A stretch of 40,157 nucleotides of DNA from Phycisphaerae bacterium. Lineage in GTDB: Bacteria > Planctomycetota > Phycisphaerae > Sedimentisphaerales > SM23-30. The DNA lies in contig JAEIOG010000043.1 of assembly GCA_016342495.1 (NCBI GenBank), positions 1 through 40,157 on the forward strand, given 5' to 3'. The notes under the pieces are model-generated. The model did no database searches. It saw only the letters and a list, made by a program, of their open reading frames with translations, and was not told where the DNA came from. Both the position numbers and the translations under genes were made by a program. This document shows positions 4,877 to 19,842 of this stretch, piece after piece; the first letter of the stretch is position 1; the number at the start of each line of letters is the position of its first letter.

Positions 4877-5854
4877 TTATCCCAGTTCCCGTTTTCTAAA
4901 TAAGGCCACCGCAATTGTCAGGACCGCGGCTATGTAACATGCGGCATAACTGCCGGAAGCTATGAGGTATTTCATTGGGACTGGCTGGTCGGTATATAAT
5001 GGTTCGCTAACGACAAAAATACTGGTTGAAGGGACAATCGCCATCGCTATCCATGCGAAGTAAGCCTTTATGCCACCGTCACTTATAATAGGTCCGAGCT
5101 TATATTGTATCATCGCCCCCAGTACAAAAGCTATCGAACATACTGTCATTGTCATAACCAGATTGAACCGAATTGCACAAGCTACTGCAAGGGCAACTAA
5201 AATGATAGAACTTATCCATACCAGTAGTCCCGGGATAATCAGATCCCAGGGGAGATGATTTTCGGCGGCATTGAATTTCCATTTTGAGTCGAGCATTGTC
5301 AAAATTATCATTACCAAGGTGGCTGAAATAGTTGCTAAAATAGTAGCTGCCGAGCTGAATCTCCAATTATATAAGTAGTTTCCTAATAAGGAGATAACGA
5401 TAGAAATGCCAATGGCTATACTGCCTAAGGTTACTACAACAGTATCAACTTCATGTGAAGCTGTCTGCATAACCCCGATACGGCACATCATCATCAAAGT
5501 CAGGAAAAGGAAATACAGTCCCAGGGTAACTGCTACTGAGATTCCCAGGAATTTGCCGATAACAAAGTTAGTGCGGCTAACTGTCTTAGTGACAACAGTT
5601 AACACGGTTTTTTTCTCGATTTCGTCGCTGACAACATTGGCCGAGGCAAAGACCGCCAGGAACAGGCCAGCAACCATTAAAGTTGATAAACCTATGTCTT
5701 TCAAGAGGTTATCGTCATCTGACATAGTAAACATCGAAAGTGATGGCGTGAAAATTAATAGTAGCAAAGCCGTAGCTATCACGACCCCATAAACTGGTTG
5801 GCGGATAGTTTCGGTGAAAGTGTTGCTAATAATAGCAAATAAACTTTTAAACAT
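4877..5854 (-). CDS. ABC-2 type transporter permease
   Basis: A 325-residue membrane protein with about 8-9 hydrophobic segments (near residues 24-40, 58-78, 104-125, 140-160, 170-190, 206-255, 262-282 and 296-318). The cytoplasmic stretch NVVSDEIEKKTVLTVVTKTV followed by SRTNFVIGKFLG at about 74-105 is the conserved amphipathic coupling region of ABC-2 permeases (compare IKRKEIFTISTKPVSR in the permease at 14462). This identifies it as the transmembrane half of an ABC exporter; the substrate is unknown. No ATPase gene adjoins it. The only ABC ATPase in the window is at 13049-14215, so the two may pair in trans. Translation starts at an ATG with GGAG 9 nt upstream. It is divergent from the SPFH cluster across a 550-bp gap and ends at an intrinsic terminator, so it is probably transcribed alone. 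Confidence 0.85.
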   Translation of the reverse strand: MFKSLFAIISNTFTETIRQPVYGVVIATALLLLIFTPSLSMFTMSDDDNLLKDIGLSTLMVAGLFLAVFASANVVSDEIEKKTVLTVVTKTVSRTNFVIGKFLGISVAVTLGLYFLFLTLMMMCRIGVMQTASHEVDTVVVTLGSIAIGISIVISLLGNYLYNWRFSSAATILATISATLVMIILTMLDSKWKFNAAENHLPWDLIIPGLLVWISSIILVALAVACAIRFNLVMTMTVCSIAFVLGAMIQYKLGPIISDGGIKAYFAWIAMAIVPSTSIFVVSEPLYTDQPVPMKYLIASGSYAACYIAAVLTIAVALFRKRELG

Positions 5855-6404
5855 TATTCGAACTCCGGGTTGTAAGTGACGTAAAAGACTATAATTGTAT
5901 TATCTGCATGGGGCAGAAAAGTTAATGGCTCAGCATTGAACTTATCTGTTTTACCTTATAAATGTCTTTCTTACAATGGTTTACAGTTAATTCTGGATTT
6001 TGCCAGTGAGCTGATTTCCCCAGCGAGAAAATAACAGCCCTAAAAGGTGTACATAGATAGTATCGGTTTTTCAACAAAAATTCCGAAAAATAAAAAGTAT
6101 AAAACAAAACTGTATTTGCAATATGACGAACAATCCGTTAAATTATTCGTCCTTATCAGAACGATGCGTGGATGGTCATCGTAGCAATTTCTGGCTGAGT
6201 CAGATCCCAGTTTAAATCCTCTTTGAGGTTCTCCTAGATACGTAAATAATAATAAACGGTTCATTTTATTAAGTGAAAAGTTATTGAATGTAGGCAAAAG
6301 GCACCAGGCAGAAGGCAAAAATGATTCATGGTGGGCGTGGCCCATCGGACCTGCTAGTGTTACAGAGTTTTGAATATTGAAATTTATATAATAAAGGTGA
6401 GTGT
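5855..6404. other. 550-bp divergent intergenic region
   Basis: This separates the minus-strand ABC permease from the plus-strand SPFH cluster and should contain both promoters, but I could not assign boxes with confidence. A TATAAT at about 6388 lies too close to the start codon to be a normal -10. Near its right end is one copy of the palindromic element (6328-6351), preceded by a GGCAAAAGGCACCAGGCAG purine-rich stretch. Two short minus-strand frames here (5922-6107 and 6040-6417) read through the repeat and are not credible genes. Confidence 0.5.
6328..6351 (+). repeat. Two-hairpin intergenic element, partial copy 2
   Basis: Only the second half is present, ending CCCATCGGACC. The hairpin (6331-6345) has stem GTGGGC/GCCCAT; the first pair is a G-T wobble where most other copies have A-T, so pairing is kept. 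It lies 59 bp upstream of the first SPFH gene, in the same orientation. Confidence 0.75.
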
Positions 6405-8357
6405 ATGAAGTTGTCACCGCGTCGTGCAGAAGTATTAAGCATTATCGCATTAGTATTACAAGTAATTTTTTCATTGCTGGCATTATTTGTCGGTAGTGAA
6501 GAGGGTATTCGTAGTAGGTCTATTCAATTTGAAGGTTGGCATCTACTGGGCGGTTCGGTTATCTGGCTGGCTTTGGCTATTCAGTTTCGTCAGAGGCGGC
6601 TAGCTGACGAAGAGAAATTTGATATAGAACAATATCAAAAGCTCAAGCAGGAAGGCAAAGATACCTCGGTATTTGAAGGCAAGTCTGACACAGGTGGAAT
6701 GTATCTGGCTCAGAGTCGTTTGGCCTGGGTAGAGAAATTTATTTTACCTGGATTCAGTATTCTGTTGGCGGTTTATTTGCTGGTAATGGGTGTATTGAGC
6801 TATAGGAATATTGATGAAAAAAGCATTGCTTTGGTTGCAGGTAAAGAAATTGAAGTAATGTCATACCTGATAGGCTTTGGCTTATTAGGTTTTTTGTTCA
6901 GTCAATATGCGATGGGCATGAGTCGACAGAGTATCTGGCGGCCATTGCGGGCCGGTGGTAGTTATCTATTAGGAAACGCGGCGGTATGTGCGGGGTTGGT
7001 TGGTTCGGTATTCAATTCAAGATATGAATATGTCATGGAATGTGTAGTTTCATGTTTGATGGTAGTATTGGGTATTGAAATACTGGTATCATTGATGCTG
7101 GACGCGTTTCGTCCCCGAATTAAAGGTCAATATAATCGGGCGGCTTTTGAATCTCGTATTTTGGGTATGATAAGTGATCCGGGCGATTTGTTGAAAAATG
7201 CCGGTCAGGCTTTAGATTATCAGTTTGGTTTTAAGGTTTCCGATACGTGGTTTTATAAATTATTAAGTAAAGCGGTGCTACCATTATTGTTTGTGCAGTT
7301 GCTGGTTCTTTATTTATTGACTTGTTTTGCGGTAGTGCCAGCGGGTTATAGCGGAGTTTTGGAACGGTGTGGGGTGCCACAGAATTTAGATAGTCCTTGT
7401 GATGCTGGCATGCATTTGAAGCTGCCGTGGCCAATAGATAAGATGGTGAACTATCCAACGGGTAAGGTTAGAAGTTTCGATATAGGTTTTGAACGCAGAG
7501 ATGCGATTATTGACCCGGCGACAGGTTTGGAACTGGCGGATATGACGCCGGTATTGTGGACTCAAGAACACTGGAAAGAAGAATATCCATTTTATGTTGC
7601 GGCATCAAAAGATGTTCGTAACAAAAAAGAGGGCAAGGTTGGCGAAGGTATACGTAATATTTTCGATATGCTGGTAGTGGGTTTGACAGTTCAATATCGC
7701 ATAAGTGATTTGGAGCAGTATGCCTATAGCAATGAAGTAGATTCTTTGAGTTTTTCTGATCCAGATAAAGCTTTGGAGTTGATTTGTAATCAGCAGGCGG
7801 TGAAATATTGTGCCAATGGCGAATTACAGAATTTATTGGGTCAGGGTCGATTTGATACGACAGTTGAACTTCATGAAATGATTCAGACAGAAGTTGATCA
7901 GAAGAAGTTGGGTTTGGAAGTTGTTTCGGTGACATTAGAATCGGTTCATCCACCACTGGCGGTAGCGCCGGCATTTCAAAAGGTTTTGGTATCGCAGCAG
8001 GAGAAGCAGGGAATAATCCTTACGGCTCGCGGTCAGGCCAAGTCGCTGATTGATCAGGCGAAATCTCAAAGTGAAGTTATTGTAGCTCAAGCTGAGGCGT
8101 ACCGGATACGTACCGGCAGGTTGGCTAAGGCTCAGGCGGAAAGATTTGCAGCCCAGCAGAAAGCATATAAAGCTGCCGGCGATGTGTATTGTATGCGAGA
8201 ATATTTGTCGGTATTGGATAGGCGATTGCCAGAGATGCGAAAATATTTAATGTTGGTCGATGTTGATGTTGATCGTTTGTATGAATTGAACCTGGAAGAA
8301 AGTATCAGACCTGATTTGTTTAGTGAAGCGTTGGGTTTGGGCGGGGATGAGAAGTAG
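6405..8357 (+). CDS. SPFH/band 7 protein with polytopic N-terminal membrane domain
   Basis: A 650-residue fusion. The first 290 residues are a membrane domain with about six hydrophobic segments (near 12-30, 44-62, 112-132, 150-170, 186-205 and 212-235). A further segment at about 290-312 leads into a typical SPFH domain: VPAGYSGVLERCG, GMHLKLPWPIDKMVNYPTGKVRSFDIGF, a beta-rich core up to about 540, then an Ala/Gln/Lys-rich coiled coil (about 545-610; QAKSLIDQAKSQSEVIVAQAEAY-like). The SPFH half is HflK-like. Ordinary HflK/HflC have one N-terminal transmembrane helix, so the extra membrane domain is unusual. SPFH proteins form large ring or cage assemblies on the membrane and regulate FtsH protease or organise lipid domains; which applies here is unknown. 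A good ribosome site (AAGGTGA) precedes the ATG. It is the first gene of the SPFH-ATPase-ABC series. Confidence 0.88.
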   Translation: MKLSPRRAEVLSIIALVLQVIFSLLALFVGSEEGIRSRSIQFEGWHLLGGSVIWLALAIQFRQRRLADEEKFDIEQYQKLKQEGKDTSVFEGKSDTGGMYLAQSRLAWVEKFILPGFSILLAVYLLVMGVLSYRNIDEKSIALVAGKEIEVMSYLIGFGLLGFLFSQYAMGMSRQSIWRPLRAGGSYLLGNAAVCAGLVGSVFNSRYEYVMECVVSCLMVVLGIEILVSLMLDAFRPRIKGQYNRAAFESRILGMISDPGDLLKNAGQALDYQFGFKVSDTWFYKLLSKAVLPLLFVQLLVLYLLTCFAVVPAGYSGVLERCGVPQNLDSPCDAGMHLKLPWPIDKMVNYPTGKVRSFDIGFERRDAIIDPATGLELADMTPVLWTQEHWKEEYPFYVAASKDVRNKKEGKVGEGIRNIFDMLVVGLTVQYRISDLEQYAYSNEVDSLSFSDPDKALELICNQQAVKYCANGELQNLLGQGRFDTTVELHEMIQTEVDQKKLGLEVVSVTLESVHPPLAVAPAFQKVLVSQQEKQGIILTARGQAKSLIDQAKSQSEVIVAQAEAYRIRTGRLAKAQAERFAAQQKAYKAAGDVYCMREYLSVLDRRLPEMRKYLMLVDVDVDRLYELNLEESIRPDLFSEALGLGGDEK

Positions 8358-8360
8358 GGA

Positions 8361-8455
8361 TGAGTTTGCAGTTAACAGTTAAAAGTTAACAGTGAAAAGT
8401 TGAGGTGTCGCGTTGCGACGGTTGTTTTATCAGCATGGGCAGAGCCCATCGGACC
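8361..8455 (+). repeat. Two-hairpin intergenic element, copy 3 (with a repeat B fragment)
   Basis: The gap between the first two SPFH genes starts with a fragment of the second repeat family (AACAGTGAAAAGTTG, about 8388-8402). It then has the full two-hairpin element at 8404-8455: GTCGC-GTT-GCGAC followed by ATGGGC-AGA-GCCCAT (8435-8449) and CGGACC. The element ends 15 bp before the GTG start of the next gene. Confidence 0.85.
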
Positions 8456-8470
8456 ATATTGGAGTTTGAA

Positions 8471-9388
8471 GTGAAAAAGCAGTTTGTATTAGTAGTCGGT
8501 TTTGCGATAGTATTGGGTTTGCTGAGCTATAGCATGTTTTTTGCGGTGCGTACCAGCGAGCAGGCATTGGTAGTGAGCTTTGGCAAGGTGGTAGCCCAGG
8601 TGGAAGAGCCGGGTTTGAAATTTATATGGCCATGGCAAAAGCCGGTGAAATTTGATATGCGGGTGCGAAGTCTGGCTCAGGAATTGAAAGAAACAGCGAC
8701 AAAAGACCAGGCTAATCTGGTTGGTTCGTTCTTTTTGAACTGGAAGATAGTCGATGTGAAGAAATTCTATGATACGATGGGGATGTCAAGTTCAGATCAG
8801 AGGATACTGGAAGCAGAAAACCGGATGAGAAGCCAATGGCTAAGTGCGGCAAGTAATGAGATCACCAAATATCATTTTGAGGAATTGTTTAATACCGATA
8901 TCGACAAGTTTAAATTGCAAGACCTGGAAACGGGTATGCTGGACTTATTAAAAGCATCGGCAGCAAATGACGACTATGGTATTGAAGTTGTTGGCTTTGG
9001 TTTTCATAAGCTGGGGGTTTCAAAAGAAGTTACTGCTGGAGTATTTAGCCGTATGACAGCAGACCGTCAGGCCGAAAGTACCAAGCTACTGGAAGAAGGC
9101 AAGACAATTGGGGAAAATATTGTTAATAAGGCCAAAGCTCAGGCAGAAGCGATTATTTCTGAGGCTTATGCTAAGGAGATGGAAATTCGGGCCGAAGGTG
9201 ATGCCGCAGCTGCAGAATATTCGGTGGCGTTTATGGCTAACCCTGAACTTGCGAAGTTTTTACGTAAAATAGAAACCTTGAAGAAGACTTTAGCCAATAG
9301 AACGACATTGGTATTGGATGCAGATTCACCGATATATAAGTTGTTGAATGAGCGACCTGAGGTTAAGGATTTTGTGCCGGAGAAGTAA
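8471..9388 (+). CDS. SPFH/band 7 protein, HflC-like
   Basis: A 305-residue membrane-anchored SPFH protein. One N-terminal transmembrane helix (about 5-27) is followed by RTSEQALVVSFGKVVAQVEE, PGLKFIWPWQKPVKFDMRVR, an SPFH core to about 200, and an Ala/Glu-rich coiled coil (about 205-260). The length and single helix match HflC, the partner of HflK in the complex around FtsH. The frame is open from 8405, but those 22 codons translate the palindromic repeat. The GTG at 8471 has GGAG 7 nt upstream and starts VKKQFVLVVGF, so I take it as the start. It is followed after 72 bp by a third SPFH gene. HflC-like is a family-level call only; no protease gene is in the window. Confidence 0.87.
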   Translation: MKKQFVLVVGFAIVLGLLSYSMFFAVRTSEQALVVSFGKVVAQVEEPGLKFIWPWQKPVKFDMRVRSLAQELKETATKDQANLVGSFFLNWKIVDVKKFYDTMGMSSSDQRILEAENRMRSQWLSAASNEITKYHFEELFNTDIDKFKLQDLETGMLDLLKASAANDDYGIEVVGFGFHKLGVSKEVTAGVFSRMTADRQAESTKLLEEGKTIGENIVNKAKAQAEAIISEAYAKEMEIRAEGDAAAAEYSVAFMANPELAKFLRKIETLKKTLANRTTLVLDADSPIYKLLNERPEVKDFVPEK

Positions 9389-9404
9389 AGAAGGTTAAGA
9401 GTTT

Positions 9405-9455
9405 GGTGTCGCATGGCGACGAGGTTTTTATCGGTATGGGCATAGCCCATCGGAG
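9405..9455 (+). repeat. Two-hairpin intergenic element, copy 4
   Basis: Full copy between the second and third SPFH genes: GTCGC-ATG-GCGAC, a T-rich linker, then ATGGGC-ATA-GCCCAT (9436-9450). The second hairpin ends only 10 nt before the ATG at 9461, so it overlaps or abuts the ribosome site (GGAG within CATCGGAGC). Confidence 0.85.
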
Positions 9456-9460
9456 CTAGA

Positions 9461-10753
9461 ATGATTGGCGTAAAGCCAGGAGATAATCGTAAAATGGCAC
9501 ATGATCATAAAAATGAAAGCTGTAGTTGTGGGGATGACCACGGCAGAGATCCTTTGCTGGATGTGGAACTGGATTCCGGTCAAGAGGCATTGGAACGGGC
9601 ATTAAAGCAGAGTTTTGTACTGCTGAAATTTGTAATGATATTATTGATAGGTTTGTTCATCTGGAGCGGGATGTTTGAAGTCCAGACCAGCGAAAGAGCG
9701 GTGAAGCTTCGTTTTGGTGAAATAGTTGGTACCAGAGATAAAGCCGTGCTGGGCCCGGGCTGGCATTGGAGCTGGCCATACCCAGTGGAAGAAATTATTA
9801 AGTTCCCGATGGCCGGCAATAAAAAGCCAATTAAGGTTGATTCATTCTGGTATTATGAAGATGAAGCGACCAAGTCGGATCTGGAACAGAATCAGCGGAT
9901 ACCGCCAGAATTACAGATTGTGCGGGAAGGCTATAGCATAACAGCAGCCGGCGAGGTTGACCCTGATATTGCGATACTGGAAGATAATGCCAGTAGCGGT
10001 CGTGATTGCAGTCTGGTGCATACCAAATGGGAAATCAATTATATGATTCGCAAAGATGCATCTCGTCCCAATGAAAGCTATTTGAAATTATTTGAGAAGG
10101 CCTGGGATGGAACAGATGCAGGCTGGGGAAATGTTAAGGCATTACTGAGAACGGCCCTGGAAGATGCTGTAATAAGGGTAAGTGCCAGGCATGATATAGA
10201 CTGGATGCTAGAGGGTAATCAGGCGATTTTGGAAAGTGAAGTGGCAAGCGCGTTTCAGAGTCGGGTAAGAGATTTGGATATTGGGATAGAGGCCGAGTTG
10301 GTATTGCCAAAGATATTGCGGCCCCGTCAGGTCAAAAGAGCTTATGATGAAGCGACGCGTGCCCATAATGAAGCCGATAAGTTGAAGACTCAGGCCTACA
10401 CTATGGAATCTCAGATATTGACCGCTGCCCGTAGTCAAAAAGAAATTGTTATCGCTAATGCCCAGACCTATAGGAAATTAATTGTGGAGGCTACCAAGTC
10501 TGAAGCACAATATATGACCAGGTTTTTAAAGCAGATCGAAGATACTACCAGTGAGTCGGTAGATAAAGCAAAAGAGCCGGATCGATGGAAACAGGAATAT
10601 GCCAAACTGTTAGATATTAACCTGGATATTTTGTATCAGCAGATGCTAAGAGATGTCGCGGGAAGGGCCGACGAGGTGTTCTTAAATGGCAAAGCCAGCC
10701 AGATAAGGGTTCAGCTTAATCGGGATCCGAATATTAAGAAGAAGAAACAGTAA
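9461..10753 (+). CDS. SPFH/band 7 protein, HflK-like, with His/Cys-rich N-terminus
   Basis: A 430-residue protein. The N-terminal cytoplasmic part holds a cluster of possible metal ligands within 14 residues: His14, His16, Cys21, Cys23 and His27 (HDH...CSC...H). One transmembrane helix follows at about 52-74 and then the SPFH domain: MFEVQTSERAVKLRFGEIVG, GPGWHWSWPYPVEEIIKFP, core to about 310, coiled coil to about 370. HflK proteins normally carry a Gly-rich cytoplasmic N-terminus, so the His/Cys cluster stands out, especially because the next gene is a heavy-metal ATPase. Two starts are possible: ATG 9461 (GGAG 5 nt away) or ATG 9494 (AGGAG about 11 nt away). Both keep the cluster. The tail is Lys-rich. 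Confidence 0.86.
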   Translation: MIGVKPGDNRKMAHDHKNESCSCGDDHGRDPLLDVELDSGQEALERALKQSFVLLKFVMILLIGLFIWSGMFEVQTSERAVKLRFGEIVGTRDKAVLGPGWHWSWPYPVEEIIKFPMAGNKKPIKVDSFWYYEDEATKSDLEQNQRIPPELQIVREGYSITAAGEVDPDIAILEDNASSGRDCSLVHTKWEINYMIRKDASRPNESYLKLFEKAWDGTDAGWGNVKALLRTALEDAVIRVSARHDIDWMLEGNQAILESEVASAFQSRVRDLDIGIEAELVLPKILRPRQVKRAYDEATRAHNEADKLKTQAYTMESQILTAARSQKEIVIANAQTYRKLIVEATKSEAQYMTRFLKQIEDTTSESVDKAKEPDRWKQEYAKLLDINLDILYQQMLRDVAGRADEVFLNGKASQIRVQLNRDPNIKKKKQ

Positions 10754-10755
10754 AT

Positions 10756-10906
10756 TGTTCAAACTGACCGAAAGTCAGCTTGTAAGTTAAAAACTAACAG
10801 TGAAAAGTGAAAAGTTGCGGTATTTACCTGCGGTAAATGCTAAATAAAAAAAGCACTCAAGTATTAACTGAAATTTTATAAAAGATAGACAGTTGGCTTG
10901 AGTTAG
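10756..10906 (+). repeat. Intergenic repeat B, copy 1
   Basis: This begins 3 bp after the stop of the third SPFH gene. It shares most of its first 105 bp with 14221-14330: CAAACTGAC-loop-GTCAG half-palindrome, AGTTAAAAACTAACAGTG, then GCGGTATTTACC-TGC-GGTAAATGC (a 7-bp stem) and AAGCACTCAAGT. The remainder of the gap to 10933 shows nothing else besides the ribosome site AGGA. Confidence 0.85.
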
Positions 10907-10933
10907 GAATAAATTAATAATATAGGATAAGTT

Positions 10934-12859
10934 ATGGCAGGACATTCAGGACATAATCTGACAGCGGTGGAAGCTGGCGATACGACTCAAATGAAAAAAG
11001 TGAGTATGTCGCTGTTGGCGACGCTATTGGGCGGGGCGCTGATAATAAACAGTATGCTGGCGCGGAATTTTTTCACAAGTGTTTTCACCGAAGATCATGC
11101 GGAGATAATGGCAATGATCGGGGCGATTCTTTTGGGGTTGCCGGTATGTGTAAACGCATTGAAATGTTTTCTGGCAGGCCATAACCATATGGATGAGCTG
11201 GTGGCACTGGCAATTATTGCGGCATTTGCCGTTGGCGATTATGAAGTAGCCGGTGCGGTAGCATTTTTTATGCTACTGGCGGAACTGGTAGAAACCAGAA
11301 CAGCATTGGGTGCCCGGGCATCAATTGAATCGTTGATAAGGATCACGCCAACGCGGGCATTTTTATTGGCTGGCGATGGCAGTGAAACAGAAATTGAAGC
11401 ATCGCAGTTACAGGCAGGACAAATCGTAAGAGTGCGGCCTGGTGATAATGTGCCAGCAGATGGTATCGTGGTTTCAGGTCAGTCGACAATTGATCAGGCG
11501 AATATTACCGGTGAATCGGTGCCGGTGGATAAAAATTCTGGTGATGTTGTATTTGCCGGGACGACCAATATGACTGGTATGCTGGATATCAAAGTTGAAA
11601 CCGCAGGAACAGATACGACTTTAGGTAAGGTGCAGAATTTAATTTTGCAGGCTGAAGCGACTAAGGTGCCGATGATGCGAATTGTGGATAAGTATATTAA
11701 ATGGTATACGCCGGTGATATTGATGGTTGCTGGTTTGATTTTTGTATTGACTCAACAGGCCGAGAACGCAATTTCGGTTTTGATTATCGCCTGTCCTTGT
11801 GCGATTATATTAGCGACGCCAACAGCGATGGTGGCAGCATTAAGTTGTGCGGCTCGATTGGGGCTGCTGATTAAGAATGTAGGTGAATTAGAAGTAGCGG
11901 CGAAATTGACGGCGATGGTTTTTGATAAAACCGGAACGCTGACAACCGGGCAGTTGGCGGTAACTAAGTTGACCCCGGCAGCTGGGATTGACCCGACTGA
12001 TATGTTGACAAAAGCTTCGACGCTGGAACAATATAGTAAGCATCCGGCAGCGAAAGCGATCAATGCGGTAGCAGCTAAGGCGAATCTGACAATGGGGACC
12101 GCTGATAATTTTGAAGAAGTACCCGGTAAAGGGGTAAGCGGGTTAGTTGATGGTGTTAAGGTTCTGGTTGGTCGTGATACATGGCTGGGGGAACTGGGTG
12201 TGGATATGAGTGCTTTGCAGGCTGAAGGTATGGAAGCACCAGAAGGTGTGAGTCTTTTGTTTGTGGCCAGCGAAGGTAAATGTATCGGCTGGGTTGGAAT
12301 GGAAGACCGGACCCGAAGTGAAGCACGCCAGGCGATTGATGATCTGCATGAATTAGGAATAAAAAGACTGGTTATGGTTACCGGTGATAGATTAGCGGTG
12401 GCACATCGGGTGGCAGCGGAAATGGGATGCAGCGAAGTGAAAGCTGAATGTCTGCCCCAGGAGAAACTGCATTTGGTAAATCAATTGCAGAGTCAGGGCC
12501 ATCTGGTAGCGGTTGTCGGTGATGGCGTGAATGATGCGCCGGCGTTGGCCGCTGGAGACCTGGGTATTGCGATGGGTGCGGCAGGTTCTGATGTGGCGAT
12601 TACCAGTGCATCGGTTGCATTGATGAATAATGAACTGAATCGGTTGCCATTTATGATTAAATTGAGCAGACTGACCCGTGCGGTTATTTTGCAGAATTTG
12701 TGTTTTGGCGTTGGATTTATTATTGTTGGTATAATCTTGAGTGGAAAAGGGATGATACCAACGTTGATGGCAGCGATATTGCATCTGGTAAGTTCTTTTG
12801 TGATTGTTTTTAATAGTGCAAGACTCGTTCGATACGGCGAAGAACTTCATCACCACTAG
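10934..12859 (+). CDS. P1B-type heavy-metal-transporting ATPase
   Basis: A 641-residue ATP-driven metal exporter of the inner membrane. All catalytic motifs are intact: TGES (about 192), ACPCAIILATP in a membrane helix (about 286), the phosphorylated DKTGTLT (Asp about 331), the P1B-specific SKHPA (about 370), MVTGD (about 481) and GDGVNDAPA (about 529). The CPC motif fits Cu+ or Zn2+/Cd2+ pumps. There is no N-terminal HMA metal-binding domain; instead there are His residues at the N-terminus (HSGHN), an AGHNHMDE loop and a C-terminal HHH. The last helix region reads ILHLVSS...VFNSARL, mixing a His with SS, so the metal cannot be assigned to the Cu or the Zn group by motif. AGGA stands 6 nt before the ATG. 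It sits between the SPFH trio and the ABC exporter. Confidence 0.93.
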   Translation: MAGHSGHNLTAVEAGDTTQMKKVSMSLLATLLGGALIINSMLARNFFTSVFTEDHAEIMAMIGAILLGLPVCVNALKCFLAGHNHMDELVALAIIAAFAVGDYEVAGAVAFFMLLAELVETRTALGARASIESLIRITPTRAFLLAGDGSETEIEASQLQAGQIVRVRPGDNVPADGIVVSGQSTIDQANITGESVPVDKNSGDVVFAGTTNMTGMLDIKVETAGTDTTLGKVQNLILQAEATKVPMMRIVDKYIKWYTPVILMVAGLIFVLTQQAENAISVLIIACPCAIILATPTAMVAALSCAARLGLLIKNVGELEVAAKLTAMVFDKTGTLTTGQLAVTKLTPAAGIDPTDMLTKASTLEQYSKHPAAKAINAVAAKANLTMGTADNFEEVPGKGVSGLVDGVKVLVGRDTWLGELGVDMSALQAEGMEAPEGVSLLFVASEGKCIGWVGMEDRTRSEARQAIDDLHELGIKRLVMVTGDRLAVAHRVAAEMGCSEVKAECLPQEKLHLVNQLQSQGHLVAVVGDGVNDAPALAAGDLGIAMGAAGSDVAITSASVALMNNELNRLPFMIKLSRLTRAVILQNLCFGVGFIIVGIILSGKGMIPTLMAAILHLVSSFVIVFNSARLVRYGEELHHH

Positions 12860-12863
12860 GCAG

Positions 12864-12900
12864 GCAGCTTGAAGCTGCACACCACTTTTGTTGCGGTGGG
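12864..12900 (+). repeat. Short hairpin repeat D, copy 1
   Basis: Directly after the ATPase stop codon is GCAGCTT-G-AAGCTGC (12864-12878) followed by CACCACTTTTGTTGCGGTG. A related sequence (ACAAGCTGGAAGCTT, then CCTACTTTTGG) is at 40030-40057. There is no T tract, so it is not a standard intrinsic terminator. Confidence 0.55.
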
Positions 12901-12989
12901 CGTGTTTTTCGCTTCCGTTGGTCGCTTGGGCCGTCAGCTTTGAGTGTGCGGTTGTGGCAATTGTTGGATTGGTTTTAATAATTTAATTT

Positions 12990-13036
12990 GGTGTCGCTTG
13001 GCGACGGATTTTTATTGGCTTGGGCATAGCCCATCC
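12990..13036 (+). repeat. Two-hairpin intergenic element, copy 5
   Basis: Full copy before the ABC ATPase gene: GTCGC-TTG-GCGAC, T-rich linker, then TGGGC-ATA-GCCCA (13021-13033). It ends 12 bp before the ATG at 13049; the element lacks the final CGGACC seen in most copies. Confidence 0.85.
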
Positions 13037-13048
13037 TTATGGTGAAAT

Positions 13049-14215
13049 ATGACAACTGAAAATTTGGCGATATATACGCAGGGGTTGACTAAGAAGTTTC
13101 GTGATTTTTGGGGACGTAACAAGGTTACGGCGGTCGAAGGGCTGGATCTTGAAGTGAGCCAGGGCGAAGTTTTTGGTTTGCTGGGGCCCAATGGTTCGGG
13201 CAAAAGTACAACGATTAAGGTTTTGCTGGGGTTGCTGACGGCGACTAATGGTTATGCCAAGGTATTGGGCCATGATCCTGGTGATGTTGCGACTAATGCG
13301 CGGATTGGTTATCTGCCAGAAGAGTCATATTTGTATCCGTTTTTGAATGCTCGTGAAACGCTGGATTTTTATGGCAGGTTGTTCGGGTTGGCCGGCGATG
13401 TTCGCAAACAGCGTATAGAAAGTTTATTGGAGATGGTAGGGCTGGCAAGTGTGTCGCGTCGGCCTATCGGGGAATTTTCCAAAGGTATGCAAAGACGTAT
13501 CGGGCTGGCTCAGGCATTGATAAATGACCCAGAGCTGTTGATCTTAGATGAGCCAACCAGTGGTTTGGATCCGATTGGTACTAAGCAGATTAAGGATTTG
13601 ATTGCAGAATTGGGCCAACGGGGTAAGACGGTGTTGCTTTGCAGTCATCTGCTGGCTGATGTTGAAAGTGTCTGTGACCGGGTGTGTATTTTGTATGGTG
13701 GGAAGAAACGTGATCAGGGGCATGTCTCTGAGGTGTTGGCCCAGACTGATAAAACGCAATTGCAGCTGCCAAGACTGAGTGGAAAAGTATTAGAAGAAAT
13801 TAAAGCGGTAGTTAATAAACATTATGGCGATTGTGAATTCCAGGTGAGTAATCCGCATGTAAGTCTGGAAGAATATTTTCTGGAGATTGTCCGAAAAGCC
13901 CAGGAAGAGCAAATTGCTACTTCGGGAGCGACAATGGGTGGCCAAGTCAGTGGATTTTTGGGTCAGGTTGAACGCGATAAAGGGCAAAACATTATTGGTG
14001 ATTTGCTGACAGGAAAAGAGATTCCGGTTCAGGTGAAACAGGATGTTGAAGCCGAGACGGTGCGGGTTGAGGCTCAGCAGGTTCGTGAAGATGTTTTAGG
14101 TAAGCTGGTTGAGACTGATAAGATAGAAGTTAAACCTAAAAAGGTTGATAAGAAAGAAGATGTTGCCGAGAAGAAGACGGATAAGTCGGTGATTGATGAT
14201 CTGCTTGGTGGTTAA
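13049..14215 (+). CDS. ABC transporter ATP-binding protein (ABC-2 exporter type)
   Basis: A 388-residue cytoplasmic ATPase of the DRA/CcmA-like group that powers ABC-2 exporters. Walker A GPNGSGKST is at 46-54, YLPEES (Q-loop region) at about 89, the signature FSKGMQ at 143-148, Walker B LLILDEPTSGLDP at 163-175, and the switch His at 200 (CSHLLADVES). The nucleotide-binding domain ends near 225. A long C-terminal extension follows, with a Lys/Glu/Val-rich charged last 80 residues ending DDLLGG; most relatives end near 310. The permease gene at 14462 is the obvious partner, and the orphan permease at 4877 is a second candidate. The substrate is unknown. The gap to the permease (246 bp) contains repeats B and A. 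Confidence 0.93.
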   Translation: MTTENLAIYTQGLTKKFRDFWGRNKVTAVEGLDLEVSQGEVFGLLGPNGSGKSTTIKVLLGLLTATNGYAKVLGHDPGDVATNARIGYLPEESYLYPFLNARETLDFYGRLFGLAGDVRKQRIESLLEMVGLASVSRRPIGEFSKGMQRRIGLAQALINDPELLILDEPTSGLDPIGTKQIKDLIAELGQRGKTVLLCSHLLADVESVCDRVCILYGGKKRDQGHVSEVLAQTDKTQLQLPRLSGKVLEEIKAVVNKHYGDCEFQVSNPHVSLEEYFLEIVRKAQEEQIATSGATMGGQVSGFLGQVERDKGQNIIGDLLTGKEIPVQVKQDVEAETVRVEAQQVREDVLGKLVETDKIEVKPKKVDKKEDVAEKKTDKSVIDDLLGG

Positions 14216-14220
14216 TAATT

Positions 14221-14376
14221 TACTCAAACTGACCGCTAGTCAGTTTGAAAGTTAAAAACTAACAGTGAAAAGTGAAAAGTTGCGGTATTTACCTACGGTA
14301 AATGCTATTTTATAAAAGCACTCAAGTTATTACTGAAAATTTATTTACAGATAATTTTCGGTTAGTTTGGGTTAAT
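14221..14376 (+). repeat. Intergenic repeat B, copy 2
   Basis: This starts 5 bp after the ABC ATPase stop. The 9-bp inverted repeat CAAACTGAC-CGCTA-GTCAGTTTG (14224-14246) is perfect here, whereas copy 1 is imperfect. The second hairpin ATTTACC-TAC-GGTAAAT has a perfect 7-bp stem in both copies, with the middle loop base changed. The 3' part (AAGCACTCAAGTTATTACTG) is also shared. Confidence 0.85.
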
Positions 14377-14382
14377 AATTTA

Positions 14383-14432
14383 GGTGTTGTTTTGCGACGG
14401 ATTTTTATCGGCATGGGCATAGCCCATCGGAC
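14383..14432 (+). repeat. Two-hairpin intergenic element, copy 6
   Basis: Full copy: GTTGT-TTT-GCGAC, where two changes from GTCGC still pair through G-T wobbles, then ATTTTTATCGGC, then ATGGGC-ATA-GCCCAT (14413-14427) and CGGACC. It lies 30 bp before the permease start. Confidence 0.85.
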
Positions 14433-14461
14433 CAAAAGTTATTTTGATATAAAGGTATGAG

Positions 14462-15877
14462 ATGAAAGTAATTTGGGCGATAGCCAGGGCTTTGCTTTTA
14501 GAGATATGGCGAATGCGGGCATTGATGATCTTTGTTGGGCTGGTAGTTTCGGTCTATACATTGGGCTTTGGTGCATGGGTATATGTTTCTGAAGATCGAA
14601 TGGATAATAAGGTTCAGACTTTTTTGAGCTACAGCCTGAGCATAATGTCGGTGCTGGGGACGTTCCTGGTGATATTCCTGTCGGCGTTGACGATATGTCG
14701 GGATATTAAGCGGAAAGAGATATTTACAATTTCTACCAAGCCGGTCAGTCGGCATTGTTACTTGCTGGGTAAGCTGGCTGGGATGGCGGTGTTTTATTTG
14801 ATATTTGTGGCAGTGAATGGGATTTTGATTTATGGCATAGCCAACCATGCTCGTAATGTGGAAGTAAGTGCTGATGAAGCGAAGGTATTAAAGCATATAG
14901 TTTTTGCAGCGCGGGAATCTGCTAAGCCTGATCTTGGCAGCGAGGAAGAACTGAAAGATTTTGTTAAGGACGATGTCGAGGCTAAGATAAAAGCCCAGAT
15001 AGCGGAATCGCCTGAAAGATATCAACAAAACCCAAATCTTGAGAATCTGCTTCGGGGAAAGATGATGGCGGAAGCGGTTCAGCATGAACGCAATAAAAGA
15101 AGCACTGTCGGTCCGGGCGGCTCGAAGATATGGTATTTTAAGGGTGTGAATTCGATAGATAGAGAAAATGATCTGCTTTATGTTCGATTCAAGCAGGAGG
15201 TCAGTTTAGTGCCATCGGATGAGAGATTGAGTAATATCTGGTATTATGGTGCTCGGGATTTGGCTACCAGTGGTTATGATGGTCGTTATAATAATGATGG
15301 CAGGCGTGAGACTATTCGGGCAGTGCATGAATTTCCGGTAGAAGCTAAGATGGCTTCGGAAGAAGGTGATTTTTATATCAGCTATGTAAATGATCCGCGA
15401 GCAAATGAAGGGGCGTCGGTGGCGTTTCAGGCTGACAGAGCTGATAAAGCTGGTTTGGAAGTGCTGTATGTAGTTGGCTCGTTTGAACAGAATTTCATCC
15501 GGACTTTGTTATTGATATTTATGAGAGGTTTTTTCCTTTCGATATTAGGTATAGCGTTGGGGGCGTGGCTGAGTTTTCCGGTGGCGGTTTTGGCGTTGTT
15601 AATGGTTTATCTGCTGGGGGTATCCAGTGAATTTATCAATAGTGCGATGAAGTGGGAAGGTGGAGATTTTCAGACCAAGGTTTCAAAAGTGATAATGAAT
15701 ATATTCCCACACTTAGCGGCTTATGATCCGGTACCTATGATTGAAAAAGGTTTGCTGGTTCAGGGGACAATGATAGGTGAATGTGCATTTTATATGCTTT
15801 TGATTAAGGGCGGAGTTGTGGCATTGTTGGGCTATGTGGTCTTTAGACTGAGAGAATTGGCAAGAGTAATAGTTTGA
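14462..15877 (+). CDS. ABC-2 type transporter permease with large soluble insert
   Basis: A 471-residue membrane protein and probable partner of the upstream ATPase. Two N-terminal hydrophobic segments (about 20-42 and 60-82) are followed by the coupling motif ICRDIKRKEIFTISTKPVSR (about 83-102) and a third helix (about 108-128). A hydrophilic domain of about 215 residues (130-345) comes next, rich in charged helices and then beta strands, and probably faces the periplasm. Three or four hydrophobic segments (about 355-460) complete the protein. The insert between helices 3 and 4 is large for an ABC-2 permease and may bind a partner such as the product of the next gene. AAAGG lies a few bases before the ATG. 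The substrate is unknown. Confidence 0.88.
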   Translation: MKVIWAIARALLLEIWRMRALMIFVGLVVSVYTLGFGAWVYVSEDRMDNKVQTFLSYSLSIMSVLGTFLVIFLSALTICRDIKRKEIFTISTKPVSRHCYLLGKLAGMAVFYLIFVAVNGILIYGIANHARNVEVSADEAKVLKHIVFAARESAKPDLGSEEELKDFVKDDVEAKIKAQIAESPERYQQNPNLENLLRGKMMAEAVQHERNKRSTVGPGGSKIWYFKGVNSIDRENDLLYVRFKQEVSLVPSDERLSNIWYYGARDLATSGYDGRYNNDGRRETIRAVHEFPVEAKMASEEGDFYISYVNDPRANEGASVAFQADRADKAGLEVLYVVGSFEQNFIRTLLLIFMRGFFLSILGIALGAWLSFPVAVLALLMVYLLGVSSEFINSAMKWEGGDFQTKVSKVIMNIFPHLAAYDPVPMIEKGLLVQGTMIGECAFYMLLIKGGVVALLGYVVFRLRELARVIV

Positions 15878-15889
15878 TTGAGTTAAAAG

Positions 15890-15919
15890 TTTATCAGCAT
15901 GGGCATAGCCCATCGGACC
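15890..15919 (+). repeat. Two-hairpin intergenic element, partial copy 7
   Basis: Second half only: TTTATCAGC, then ATGGGC-ATA-GCCCAT (15899-15913), CGGACC. It fills half of the 61-bp gap between the permease and the 620-residue protein. Confidence 0.85.
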
Positions 15920-15938
15920 GGAAATAGAGAGTATAGAT

Positions 15939-17801
15939 ATGCGAAAAGGGCCATGGGTCACGATAATATTGGTTTTACTGGCATTTTGTTTTATGGCAGG
16001 AGCTGTATTGCAGTTGTCAGGCGTAAATAAAATGCGCAAAGATTATGCGCTGGAGCAGGTCGATCCTTTTGCTGACGAGAAGCTGGCATCGGAATTTCAG
16101 GTGCCAACGGCGGCTTTGTTTACATTTCGGGCTTTGGCGGTGGATTATCTCTGGATACGGGCGGAGAATCTCAAAGAGAATGGTCAGTTTTTTGATGCCA
16201 ACCATCTGGCGCGAATGATATGTGTATTGCAGCCCCATCTGGCAGAGGTATGGGATTTCCAGGCCTGGAATATGGCATATAATATTTCGGTGGAAATGCC
16301 CACTCCGGGTGAGAGATGGCTTTGGGTTATGCACGGGGTTGAATTGTTGCGGGATCAGGGTATACCGAAGAATCCTAAAAAGATAAAATTATATCACACG
16401 CTTGCTAATACGTTTTTTCATAAGATGGGTGGGATAACTGATGATGATCATCGATTTTATAAATGGCAGCTGGCAAAAGAGTTGGGGCCATTGCTGAATA
16501 AAATTTATAGTGACACCAATGATGGCGGGGATAAAAAAGATATAGAGATGATGGCTAAGATGCCAGAGGATTTGTCAGAGCTATTGAAAGATGAGGCGAT
16601 AGCCAAACTGGTTGACAGGATAAAAGAGATAGCGGGCGGATTTGAAAATGATGATGAGATGATTCTGGCGATAATAGATCGGGACAGAATAAAAAATGAA
16701 GAAGCACGATCCGGCATAAATTCTTTGATTGAGCAGAATAAATACGAGCAGAGCATGATAGATCTGGATCTATTTGTTCGAGCATATCAGCTAAGGAATA
16801 AATGGAAGTTAGAGCCAGCGGAGATGGTTAAAGTAAATGAGCAATATGGTCCAAGAGATTTGTTGGAAGACAATGTTTTTCATAGTCTGGATTGGCGTTT
16901 GCCCTGGACACAAGGATTGTATTGGGCTAAGCAAGGGTTGGCAAAAGTGGAAGATATGAATGTCCATGATGCTCAGAATTTGAATCGAATGGTTTATCAT
17001 TGTTTGCAGGATTTGTATAAATATGGCAAGATGACGATATATTTAAGTCGTGAACAGGAACTATTGATGGCAGAGCGTGAGAAAGGTCAGGAGATTCTAG
17101 CTCATCAGAGTGTGGAATATCTGCCAGTGTTTAATAGCCAGGACTTACGTATGCTTGATGTCGCTTATAAGGAAAGTGCAAATATTGTTGCGTCATTGGA
17201 ATCTGAAGGATATAAGGTTCCCGGAGGTGTGGATTCATTTATATCTAATCTGGTGAGGAATGGTGTTTTCACTTTGTATTTGCAAGGTCGAGAGCTGGAA
17301 GCCAGACGGAAATATAATGCTTTTGCGAAGGATAATCCTGGTAATGAGGCATTCCAGCAGCCAATTGAGACCTTTGTGGTTAAGGCGATGAAAGAAGAGA
17401 TTGAAAGTATTACGCCACAATACGCGACGGTTGCGGTGTTGAGTAATCTTACCAATGCATATAAGAGTCTGGTATTTGATGAAGAAGATAATGCGGCCCG
17501 GCTGGTGTATCTGGCTGAGGAGATTTTTAAGAAGTATAAAAAGGAATTTCCTGATGCTGATGATTTTACCCAGCGAACGACGCTACCTTATATGTCGGCG
17601 TTAAAAGCTATGGCAGCGGCGCAGGTTTTTGATGATCCACAGATAATCGGCAACCCTGGACTTGGCGATAAGCTGATGGCGCGGATAAATTTGGAAGAAC
17701 ATGGCGAATGGCTGTTTGATCAATTAAAGCCCGTATGGGACGCAAAGAAGCAGAAGATACAGGCAGAACGAGCCAAACGTAAAGCCCAGCAGGACAAATA
17801 A
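15939..17801 (+). CDS. Membrane-anchored helical protein of unknown function, exporter-associated
   Basis: A 620-residue protein with one N-terminal hydrophobic segment (about 8-28) and an otherwise soluble, alpha-helical body. The early segment FRALAVDYLWIRAENLKENG, then ARMICVLQPHLAEVWDFQAW and NMAYNISVEMPTPGERW resembles degenerate TPR helices. I recall similar uncharacterised planctomycete proteins encoded next to ABC-2 exporters, but I cannot confirm this without a search. The C-terminus is Lys/Gln/Arg-rich. It follows the permease by 61 bp and is the last gene of the series, so it may be an accessory subunit on the outer face of the membrane. The stop is followed by a 53-bp gap to a convergent lipoprotein gene, with no clear terminator. 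Confidence 0.78.
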   Translation: MRKGPWVTIILVLLAFCFMAGAVLQLSGVNKMRKDYALEQVDPFADEKLASEFQVPTAALFTFRALAVDYLWIRAENLKENGQFFDANHLARMICVLQPHLAEVWDFQAWNMAYNISVEMPTPGERWLWVMHGVELLRDQGIPKNPKKIKLYHTLANTFFHKMGGITDDDHRFYKWQLAKELGPLLNKIYSDTNDGGDKKDIEMMAKMPEDLSELLKDEAIAKLVDRIKEIAGGFENDDEMILAIIDRDRIKNEEARSGINSLIEQNKYEQSMIDLDLFVRAYQLRNKWKLEPAEMVKVNEQYGPRDLLEDNVFHSLDWRLPWTQGLYWAKQGLAKVEDMNVHDAQNLNRMVYHCLQDLYKYGKMTIYLSREQELLMAEREKGQEILAHQSVEYLPVFNSQDLRMLDVAYKESANIVASLESEGYKVPGGVDSFISNLVRNGVFTLYLQGRELEARRKYNAFAKDNPGNEAFQQPIETFVVKAMKEEIESITPQYATVAVLSNLTNAYKSLVFDEEDNAARLVYLAEEIFKKYKKEFPDADDFTQRTTLPYMSALKAMAAAQVFDDPQIIGNPGLGDKLMARINLEEHGEWLFDQLKPVWDAKKQKIQAERAKRKAQQDK

Positions 17802-17854: not shown

Positions 17855-18286
17855 CTATTTAACCTCAATATATTTATATGATTTAGCCCTTACAGAACCG
17901 CCGCCTTCTGGAAGGATACCAAATTTTACTCCCCCCATGGTTTTTGGTCCCACCAAAACATACGCTTTTTTATTAGGTTCGCATTCAAATTCCATTGAAG
18001 CTTCGGCAGTCCCAAGAAAGGCCTGTCGTGGGTATTTTACTGTTAAGACATGCGAGCCGCTGTCTAACTGGATATTTGTGTAACTGCCGCTGGTCAATAC
18101 CACATAATCCTGATGATCTATGCCAATGGTATAAGGCAAAGCGGCACCCATGCTGGTTTTTTCCCTGAGAACATAAAATTCTCCAGCCGTTGCTGGATTT
18201 TCGACTCTGGGAGGTCTCCCCACCTGTCCCTGTTTGCATCCGGTTAATGAAACGAAAATCACAAGTAGCCATATTACTCTAGTCAT
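17855..18286 (-). CDS. Small lipoprotein, DUF2846-like
   Basis: A 143-residue lipoprotein: hydrophobic signal ending in LTGC (Cys17), then a Pro-rich linker and a beta-rich domain. The order EFYVLREKTSMG, then a short strand-turn-strand, LTSGSYTNIQLDSGSHVLTV, and a Gly-rich end resembles the DUF2846 family of bacterial lipoproteins, whose function is unknown; this is a by-eye match. AAAGGA is about 7 nt before the ATG. It is the most downstream of four lipoprotein genes on this strand (17855-19788) and converges on the SPFH-ABC series. Confidence 0.75.
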   Translation of the reverse strand: MTRVIWLLVIFVSLTGCKQGQVGRPPRVENPATAGEFYVLREKTSMGAALPYTIGIDHQDYVVLTSGSYTNIQLDSGSHVLTVKYPRQAFLGTAEASMEFECEPNKKAYVLVGPKTMGGVKFGILPEGGGSVRAKSYKYIEVK

Positions 18287-18329
18287 TTTATTATCCTTTC
18301 AAATTGGAATATCCGTTATACCGCAAATA

Positions 18330-18965
18330 TTACTCAAACATTAACAGAGAGACTTCTTTGCCGGCCTTTTCAATAACTTCCTTAAAATCTTTTTCAAAAA
18401 CAATTTTATCATCATAGTCTGCCAGTGTTCGATTGGTGTTATTAACCATTGTCTTCTTTTCATGCCAGATTGATTTACCGTTGGAGTCAGTCATTTCAAT
18501 AATTAAACTGACAAATGGTAGAATTATATAAGAATCTTCAGCTTTTGTCGTAGCACCCCAGGCAATAATGGTAATTTCAAGCAAACCATCATATCTACCG
18601 CCATTTATATCAGCGATTTTAACTTCATTAAAATGTTTTGTTTCTTTCAGGTTTTTAATTAAGACATCGGCAAAGGCCTGGTCGGCTATAAGTAAAAAAT
18701 CCTTTGGTTTTAATTGTTCTGTGATTTTTCGATCTTTAGCACTCCTAACCATCGAATCGATGGCCGGAGGGACAAAAATTTCCTTTTTCATTGCGTCTCT
18801 ATACAAAAAGTTTGGTTTGCCTTTAACCGCCACAGCTAAATTTTTCATTGCGTCAAGTTGATTTTTATCAGGTATTACAAATTGGGGTTTATAACAACCG
18901 CTACCCATAGCTATAAATATAAGCAAAATACTGATACATATTATTTTTCTTTTCATATTAATCAC
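18330..18965 (-). CDS. Lipoprotein of unknown function
   Basis: I do not recognise the family. The precursor is 211 residues with a lipobox-like GSGC at about residue 24. The body is mixed alpha/beta, with a possible central beta sheet (GLLEITIIAWG, SYIILPFVSLIIEMTD) and a helical C-terminus. The frame starts at a GTG (18965) that has AGGAG 4 nt upstream. An in-frame ATG at 18956 also fits the signal peptide but is 13 nt from the AGGAG, so the GTG is slightly preferred. The gap to the downstream lipoprotein gene is 43 bp, so the two may share a transcript. Confidence 0.72.
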   Translation of the reverse strand: MINMKRKIICISILLIFIAMGSGCYKPQFVIPDKNQLDAMKNLAVAVKGKPNFLYRDAMKKEIFVPPAIDSMVRSAKDRKITEQLKPKDFLLIADQAFADVLIKNLKETKHFNEVKIADINGGRYDGLLEITIIAWGATTKAEDSYIILPFVSLIIEMTDSNGKSIWHEKKTMVNNTNRTLADYDDKIVFEKDFKEVIEKAGKEVSLLMFE

Positions 18966-18997
18966 AAATCTCCTATGTCAATAAATAAATATGAATC

Positions 18998-19036
18998 AAA
19001 AAAATCTTGGCTTAAATTACTAATATCTAAGCCAAG
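18998..19036 (-). terminator. Intrinsic terminator of lipoprotein gene 19069-19401
   Basis: On the minus strand: CTTGGCTTA, a 13-nt loop, TAAGCCAAG, then A and a run of seven T. The 9-bp stem (19006-19014 with 19028-19036) is perfect. It starts 32 bp after the stop codon and separates the two upstream lipoprotein genes from the two downstream ones. Confidence 0.85.
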
Positions 19037-19068
19037 GTGGTAAGCTTACTATAAGGGGTCCAATATTT

Positions 19069-19401
19069 TTAATTTATCGGTACTTTTACAACCGATCCTT
19101 TCACTTCAACGCATGAACAAAATGGATAACCATAGACTTGGTAAACAACTGCATCTAACATTAGATTACCATTTGCTTTACTAATTGCGCGATCTGTAGC
19201 ATCTTCGTAGTTAAAAAACCATCCTAAAAAAAACACTTTTCTGGCACTGACTTCAACTTTATCTAATTTTGTTAAATCAACATTTTCGCATTTTATTGGC
19301 TTAGTTGAAATCGCTGTAAAATCATATATCCTCGCCTTCACGCAACCGCTACTGACTATGGCCATTATCGACATCAATATTATTATAATAGTTTTTTTCA
19401 T
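19069..19401 (-). CDS. Small lipoprotein, paralogue of 19438-19788
   Basis: A 110-residue lipoprotein with signal peptide MKKTIIIIL...VSSGC (Cys20). The mature part starts YDFTAISTKPI, corresponding to GDFTVLTTKNI in the neighbouring gene. It then shares an acidic/hydrophobic middle and the pattern ...A...A.. GN.(M/I)L..A...Q...YPF / ...NGNADILTNARLTQTAFYIPY. The two are therefore diverged tandem duplicates of one lipoprotein family, about 110 residues long, whose function I do not know. AAAGGAAAT precedes the ATG. It lies 36 bp downstream of its paralogue and ends at an intrinsic terminator, making a two-gene operon. Confidence 0.75.
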   Translation of the reverse strand: MKKTIIIILMSIMAIVSSGCVKARIYDFTAISTKPIKCENVDLTKLDKVEVSARKVFFLGWFFNYEDATDRAISKANGNLMLDAVVYQVYGYPFCSCVEVKGSVVKVPIN

Positions 19402-19437
19402 TGCTATTTCCTTTATTTATATATCATTTTAACTAAT

Positions 19438-19788: not shown

Positions 19789-19801
19789 AGCATCTCCTTG
19801 A

Positions 19802-19842
19802 ATTAAAAGATATAACGATTTATCTTGACAAAAAGTCAAGAT
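19802..19842 (-). promoter_or_regulatory. Probable promoter and inverted repeat upstream of lipoprotein pair
   Basis: On the minus strand a TTGACT (-35 like) is followed after about 18-19 bp by TTATATC (weak -10), about 25 bp upstream of the ribosome site. The -35 lies inside an 8-bp inverted repeat, ATCTTGAC-AAAAA-GTCAAGAT (19822-19842), which could be an operator. This is a motif reading only. Confidence 0.4.

Follow-up and report, generated by a model that had tools for sequence, protein, structure and literature searches.

The 40,157-nucleotide stretch analysed here (the window; contig JAEIOG010000043.1 of assembly GCA_016342495.1, from a Phycisphaerae bacterium) carries a conserved set of eight genes, named A to H below, in which three SPFH proteins are combined with a P1B-type ATPase, an ABC-2 exporter and a TPR-like protein. 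With a probability of about 0.5, the set encodes one inner-membrane system, in which an HflKC-like periplasmic dome organises the divalent-metal pump D and is coupled to a NosFY-like exporter. The component families are known. The set as a whole, the joining of a cation diffusion facilitator (CDF)-like domain to an SPFH domain in protein A, and the SPFH trio were not found in the literature searched.

The draft genome amounts to 5.4 Mb, and the window is part of its contig C212. The initial annotation had listed seven same-strand open reading frames (ORFs) encoding three SPFH proteins, a P-type ATPase, an ABC ATPase, an ABC-2 permease and a helical protein, and all seven were present at the given places. 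It had missed the eighth gene, H, and had probably set the start of gene B too early. The ORF of B opens at 8405; since the stretch 8404-8453 belongs to an intergenic repeat that recurs in other gaps, the start is most likely the GTG at 8471. The genes of the set are as follows.

Gene H, 4877..5854, minus strand: ABC-2 permease, second of the exporter, divergent from A (ABC2_membrane_2 in 29/30 relatives)
Gene A, 6405..8357, plus strand: SPFH1, 650 amino acids; six-helix domain (residues 2-240), seventh transmembrane (TM) helix, HflK-like SPFH domain and coiled coil
Gene B, 8471..9388, plus strand: SPFH2, HflC-like
Gene C, 9461..10753, plus strand: SPFH3, HflK-like; N-terminal tail with His/Cys (HDHKNESCSCGDDHG)
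Gene D, 10934..12859, plus strand: P1B-type ATPase; CPC in TM6, HLVSS in TM8
Gene E, 13049..14215, plus strand: ABC ATPase of the ABCA/NosF type
Gene F, 14462..15877, plus strand: ABC-2 permease; large domain between helices, at about residues 125-360 by hydropathy
Gene G, 15939..17801, plus strand: one N-terminal TM helix and a TPR-like all-helical solenoid

In the proposed system, B and C, with A as a third SPFH subunit, would assemble into an HflKC-like dome at the periplasmic side of the membrane, and A would be anchored by its CDF-derived six-helix domain. The dome would hold or surround the P1B-type pump D. Divalent metal would be gathered on the cytosolic side by the His-rich tails of C and D, and D would pump it into or under the dome. 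E, F and H would form an energy-driven NosFY-like ABC-2 machine, coupled to the dome or to a client by the putative periplasmic TPR partner G. The SPFH set may control both metal and ABC export. Metal supply to an envelope client, detoxification and envelope building are candidate purposes between which the sequence does not distinguish. The data establish which genes belong to the set, their order and co-occurrence, the CDF fold in the model of A, the distinctness of the D clade and the association of the tails with the metal site of D; the topology, the dome, the metal, the coupling and the purpose are inferred.

Conservation of the gene order

Matches to protein A at an E value of 1e-10 or better were present in 155 of 392 genomes of Planctomycetota. 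Profiles of the eight families were placed on 100 planctomycete loci, comprising the strong A matches and a choice of weaker ones. For the order count, seven of 101 loci (the 100 and the window) offered insufficient sequence and were dropped, which left 94; of 19 verrucomicrobial loci, the 4 that had no A were left out. Among the eight families, the next after A was B in 92 of the 94 planctomycete loci, and B was followed by C in 91. The initial annotation had supposed that related gene sets occur in other planctomycetes, which is borne out by these counts and extends beyond the phylum: in Verrucomicrobiota (the phylum of genome G392, Kiritimatiellaeota) A was present in 15 of the 19 loci fetched, with B and then C next in all 15.

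In 56 of the 94 planctomycete loci, H lay upstream of A at a distance of at most 4.5 kb. Among the 79 with at least 10.5 kb of downstream sequence, D was adjacent, either down- or upstream, in 51, while E-F-G followed in 56 and partly in 4 more. The common layouts were H with A-B-C-D-E-F-G (21 loci, H in either direction), H with A-B-C-E-F-G (19), A-B-C-D alone (14) and D-H with A-B-C-E-F-G (9). Verrucomicrobial loci with enough sequence had D in 10/10, E-F-G in 4/10 and part of E-F-G in 3 more. All genes from A to G were in order in L208 (Lentisphaeria) and L192 (Victivallis). At least 579 relatives of G were found, and the 80 best came from groups such as Sedimentisphaerales, Phycisphaerae, Lentisphaeria, Victivallis, Kiritimatiellaeota, Verrucomicrobia and Candidatus Brocadiaceae.

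The order is found again in loci whose A proteins share no more than about 20-44% identity with that of the window. A chance neighbourhood is ruled out by this conservation in two phyla, even at low identity of A. Three loci are exceptions that count against the proposed system: A occurred without B-C in L085 and L087, and only B accompanied it in L039. On the contig of L242, E-F-G was seen between two A-B-C-D sets of opposite direction. Other recurrent neighbours were sought by clustering 3603 flanking ORFs. The 25 largest families were lineage-wide neighbours, the largest being a helicase-like ORF in 46 loci, and one of the 25 touched a locus with A-B-C-D alone.

The three SPFH proteins

A, B and C matched Band_7 with E values of 2.4e-13, 4.7e-22 and 5.5e-13, respectively, and HflK/HflC-like SPFH sequence or fold was present in the SPFH proteins of the set. 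Against the PDB, a profile of B built from 39 relatives gave HflC with 213 bits and one of C from 35 relatives gave HflK with 194.6 bits. Protein A was modelled with AlphaFold from 64 sequences (pLDDT 87.4, pTM 0.64). In VIA-align, residues 290-618 of the model superimposed on HflK (7vhq_E) with a Z-score of 16.2 and a root-mean-square deviation of 14.6 over 267 residues.

For residues 2-240 of the predicted model the same program ranked YiiP first (8f6k_B; Z 19.8, root-mean-square deviation 2.9, 197 residues), followed by ZnT1, 3, 7, 8 and 10. For helical bundles a Z-score below about 13 may reflect a common arrangement alone; the value for YiiP, together with the concurrence of numerous CDF entries, goes beyond that. 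Foldseek, the candidates of which were those re-scored by VIA-align, placed HflK at the top and ZnT7 41st, with an E value of 5.6e-3. A profile of the A N-terminus (61 rows) was also compared by hhalign with a CDF profile of 14 proteins from related genomes, and scored 90.1% over 193 columns covering all six helices. The controls gave 0.3% for the reversed CDF profile and 0.3-0.5% for H, F, D, C and G.

In the model, the six-helix domain of A is thus a CDF fold, probably of CDF descent. Two results count against the proposed system. No conserved Asp or His was found at the positions of A aligned with the Asp/His ligands in CDF helices 2 and 5, the nearest case being H46 in 17 of 64 sequences, and the A domains from loci with A-B-C-D alone (9 rows) scored 1.2% against the CDF profile directly, compared with 99.3% against the other A proteins. 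A is therefore no proven transporter. The sole invariant residue of the domain was E225 (64/64). When the domain was compared with Pfam, Cation_efflux was not among the 25 listed of 48 families. A resembles YiiP and the ZnT proteins in its six-helix TM fold and, for the whole set of A proteins taken together, in a profile that aligns across all six helices. It differs from them in that the ligands are not conserved and in the seventh helix and SPFH domain that follow the six helices.

The nearest known system is HflK/HflC-FtsH of Escherichia coli. As a precedent for the proposed dome, HflK/C assemblies have been described around FtsH (PMC12048511). B and C share with HflC and HflK one N-terminal TM helix and SPFH domains that are predicted to be periplasmic. 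The set differs in having three SPFH proteins rather than two, in the CDF-like domain on A, and in containing a P1B pump and an ABC exporter in place of ftsH. It is conceivable, though rather unlikely, that B and C are simply the HflC and HflK of this group, working with FtsH in membrane-protein quality control, with A as an extra subunit and the pumps as long-lived neighbours or degradation clients. B and C are indeed closest to HflC and HflK, and the genome of the window has only four other SPFH matches. An FtsH peptidase match was present in 11/11 genomes tested (in G392 a short partial match alone), so that a shared quality-control role is possible. The gene lies away from the set, however: on contig C66 in the genome of the window, at least 0.3 Mb off in the single-contig genomes G127, G287, G352, G381 and G048, and about 27-37 kb off in G034. 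In addition, all three proteins missed the curated NCBIfam cut-offs (hflK 159.4, hflC 134.4), with 100.6 for A against hflK, 123.9 for B against hflC (TIGR01932) and 59.7 for C against hflK. Such a quality-control role would also leave the conserved third subunit and the adjacency of D unexplained.

According to a 2025 paper, every SPFH complex known so far contains either a single kind of SPFH subunit or two kinds that form heterodimers (PMC12624060). The stomatin-aquaporin-1 structure (PDB 9zd2) is, by its title, a precedent for the binding of such a protein to a membrane transport protein; it differs from the present set in being human, with a single SPFH protein and no pump genes. The initial annotation had called the system possibly undescribed, and no description of the gene set, the CDF-SPFH join or the SPFH trio was found in the literature searched. 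Papers on SPFH proteins with cation diffusion facilitators were transporter surveys only, as judged by title and the start of the abstract. Titles listed for HflK, P-type ATPases, Planctomycetes and ABC transporters included none on the set, and none was found for SPFH with Phycisphaerae. The main text of a published survey of SPFH operons in prokaryotes (PMC2636767) contains neither the word 'ATPase' nor the term 'ABC transporter'.

The P-type ATPase and its metal site

D matched the heavy-metal P-type ATPase family TIGR01525 with 545 bits (cut-off 346) and was the only P1B match in its own genome at an E value of 1e-40 or better. A tree of 67 P1B ATPases was built from 29 of 35 whole-genome matches (11 genomes) and 38 proteins from the loci; it was rooted at the midpoint, and the support of the D split was not read. 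The set-linked D proteins grouped together and were separate from the pumps of the Cu, Zn, CPH and TPC types that these genomes also encode. By sequence, the D proteins form a distinct P1B clade.

Like ZntA, CopA and CoaT, the D protein of the window has the CPC, DKTGT and HP motifs; an HMA motif was not found by the pattern used. PMC4932525 gives YN in TM7 and MXXSS in TM8 as the signature of the Cu class P1B-1, and Lys in TM7 and DXG in TM8 as that of the Zn2+/Cd2+ class P1B-2. D fits neither of these two classes as worded there, having QNLCFGVGFII in TM7, which lacks Lys, and HLVSS in TM8. SPC in TM6 is a feature of P1B-4 ATPases (Co2+/Zn2+/Fe2+). It occurred in 0 of 130 D loci, 99 of which had CPC, so that the P1B-4 mark is absent. 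A functional His has been described for a P1B-4 pump (PMC10654040).

The site was readable in 130 of the 132 D rows listed. CPC was present in 99/130 loci and the TM8 His in 119/130, and both were present in 99/130. In the other 31 the site was altered (CPG, CPT, CPS, VPA, LPC and others) while the catalytic motifs were kept; DKTGT and HP were retained in 50/50 rows of the D clade tallied. HxH or HH tails on B, C or D accompanied 79 of the 99 intact sites and 3 of the 31 altered ones. In this count the tail start sites were set mechanically, which lessens its weight, a missing C or B was scored as no tail (C was missing in 6/99 intact-site loci), and some genomes entered it twice, through two collections. 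Duplicate D proteins were removed only for a tree of 128 D proteins, in which the altered site formed 11 clades (10 parsimony changes), 8 of them without any tail; several nodes of this tree were weakly supported, and the tails changed 26 times.

The CPC/His site remains complete in 99 of 130 loci, and the His tails are associated with it when complete, so that metal handling seems to be the most frequent state and probably the ancestral one. We read this as divalent metal having been, and mostly still being, the substrate of D, with several lineages having changed the site and lacking tails together. The 31 altered sites speak against this as a rule, and metal may therefore not be the general substrate. 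In favour of a metal role are the CDF-like fold, the P1B site and the His tails; the ligand changes seen in several lineages weaken the case for it. A further point against it is that a metal riboswitch was not seen by an Rfam scan of 14 sources (the window and 13 loci).

The set may also descend from metal transporters without handling metal, the CDF-like part of A being structural and D moving another substrate or driving a mechanical step. This was judged improbable. It agrees with the loss of the CDF ligands in A and with the altered D sites in which the catalytic motifs persist. It also agrees with the retention of an altered D elsewhere in a genome. A D-clade ATPase was located elsewhere in both genomes tested in which A-B-C-E-F-G lacks an adjacent D (G352 and G034), a finding that favours the single-system reading. 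That of G034 (C2:1220934-1222589, locus L287) has VPA in TM6 and QILPV in TM8, and so the metal ligands are gone while the phosphorylation motif is kept. What it leaves unaccounted for is the intact site in the majority of loci and the tails that accompany it.

The ABC exporter and the two modules

E matched ABCA7 in the PDB with 230.8 bits, summed over two stretches, and NosF with 179.6 bits in one stretch. A profile of F from 31 relatives gave NosY with an E value of 1.1e-7. F was singly below the Pfam cut-off, and ABC2_membrane_2 was found at an E value of 0.01 or better in 23 of the 31 relatives. For H, the profile search against the PDB gave SecE alone, with an E value of 0.12-0.17. The resemblance of E to NosF and of F to NosY is homology at the family level only. 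The set differs from the copper-enzyme maturation transporter NosDFY in having two permeases, F and H, and in that E fits the ABCA lipid transporters at least as well as NosF. NosD is a beta-helix. In its stead the set has the all-helical TPR-like protein G, no search for NosD having been made in the genomes.

The AlphaFold model of G had a pLDDT of 87.8. G itself matched no Pfam family, and TPR_14 was found weakly, at an E value of 0.1 or better, in 15 of 55 relatives. Foldseek gave Tom71 as the best match (E 4e-4, low TM-score) and VIA-align gave TPR proteins and 14-3-3 with a best Z of 11.6; no clear single relative of G in the PDB emerged from these two programs. The solenoid is probably periplasmic, and its predicted placing and that of the SPFH domains follow from the precedent of HflKC and from the charges at the N termini. 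The N-terminal part of G alone was matched in many planctomycetes (e.g. G049, G122, G217 and G378), in ORFs of roughly 270-450 residues that represent a shorter kind of G relative.

The genes fall into two modules, the SPFH trio with the P-type ATPase (A-B-C-D) and the ABC exporter with the TPR protein (E-F-G with H), since the trio and ATPase occur without the ABC genes and the ABC genes without the trio. A-B-C-D lacked E-F-G in 14 of the 79 planctomycete loci with enough sequence (e.g. L097, L098, L100 and L104). H adjoined E-F-G in L233, L234 and L235, from genomes without an A match. The following points count against one system. In the genomes behind L195, L200, L210, L213 and L215, E-F-G was apart from A, with H-A-B-C-D elsewhere. 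H-E-F-G was found in G015, G148 and G332 (families f22 and f70), which had no A match in the genome. Among the matches listed, 32 of 39 verrucomicrobial genomes with a divergent type of G were without A.

It could accordingly be argued that the trio with its P1B pump and the exporter with its TPR protein are two independent systems that are merely neighbours in some lineages. We regard this as a minority possibility. The same linkage is repeated in two phyla. A was also searched for in ten genomes, two of which carry it in the locus; in the other 8 the ABC/TPR genes of the locus are unaccompanied by A, and 7 of these hold A elsewhere, the eighth being a 1.1 Mb draft.

A and full-length G were also counted over whole genomes. 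Both were present in 69 of 392 planctomycete genomes, A only in 6 and G only in 14. The corresponding numbers for 240 verrucomicrobial genomes were 85, 10 and 2, so that A was present in 85 of the 87 with full-length G, and 7 of the 10 A-only genomes carried a divergent-type G. The best A match was counted from about 124 bits upwards in Planctomycetota and from 280 in Verrucomicrobiota, a G match from 246 and a full-length one from 298. At lower scores 2 of the 14 G-only planctomycetes hold A (G235 and G290) and 4 of the 6 A-only ones hold G (G032, G075, G134 and G156). The Fisher tests of this co-occurrence ignore relatedness, which reduces what it can tell in favour of a single system. The initial annotation had taken independent occurrence of the SPFH, ATPase and ABC genes as evidence against their link. 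The modules do separate, yet in either phylum most genomes that have A or full-length G have both.

Two families of repeats lie within the set.

Hairpin repeat, copies at 6317-6351, 8404-8453, 9405-9454, 12964-13035, 14382-14431 and 15868-15917: core GGGCATAGCCCATCGG, located between neighbouring genes of the set
129-base repeat, 10751-10879 and 14216-14344: two copies with 88% identity, one immediately behind gene C and the other behind gene E

The hairpin repeat had 78 matches with at most 2 mismatches in the whole genome, compared with 1 for a reversed control. Promoter scanning gave 34 sites (29.6 expected), and 19 terminator-like sites were found (11.8 expected), some of which are copies of the hairpin repeat. 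The Rfam scan of the window and 13 loci yielded three tRNAs, one Acido-Lenti-1 RNA and one c-di-AMP riboswitch. The latter lies in L052 (17561-17722), 0.3 kb upstream of D on the opposite strand, and for this reason probably serves the divergent neighbour. Beside the set, on the minus strand at 17855-19839, are four small consecutive ORFs that resemble lipoproteins on visual inspection; one of them matched DUF2846 weakly. Further on, a 4410-residue ORF (24785-38017, minus strand) contains many similar repeats that appear Ig-like or cadherin-like by eye.

A more far-reaching form of the single-system reading, which we consider speculative and would not expect to hold, is that the trio dome, with one subunit based on a membrane domain derived from a zinc transporter, is a periplasmic nanocompartment of the inner membrane. 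A dedicated P1B pump, fed by the His-rich tails of the dome, would fill it with divalent metal, and the ABC machine with its TPR arm would draw on it for the loading or release of an envelope client; in several lineages the metal would have been lost but the machine retained.

An SPFH complex made of a conserved trio and a pump would add a third type to those known. It would make testable what SPFH domes do besides housing FtsH. The CDF-SPFH join, the P1B clade that repeatedly changed its metal site and the uncharacterised ABC/TPR machine are new handles on bacteria with unusual envelopes, the planctomycetes and their relatives.

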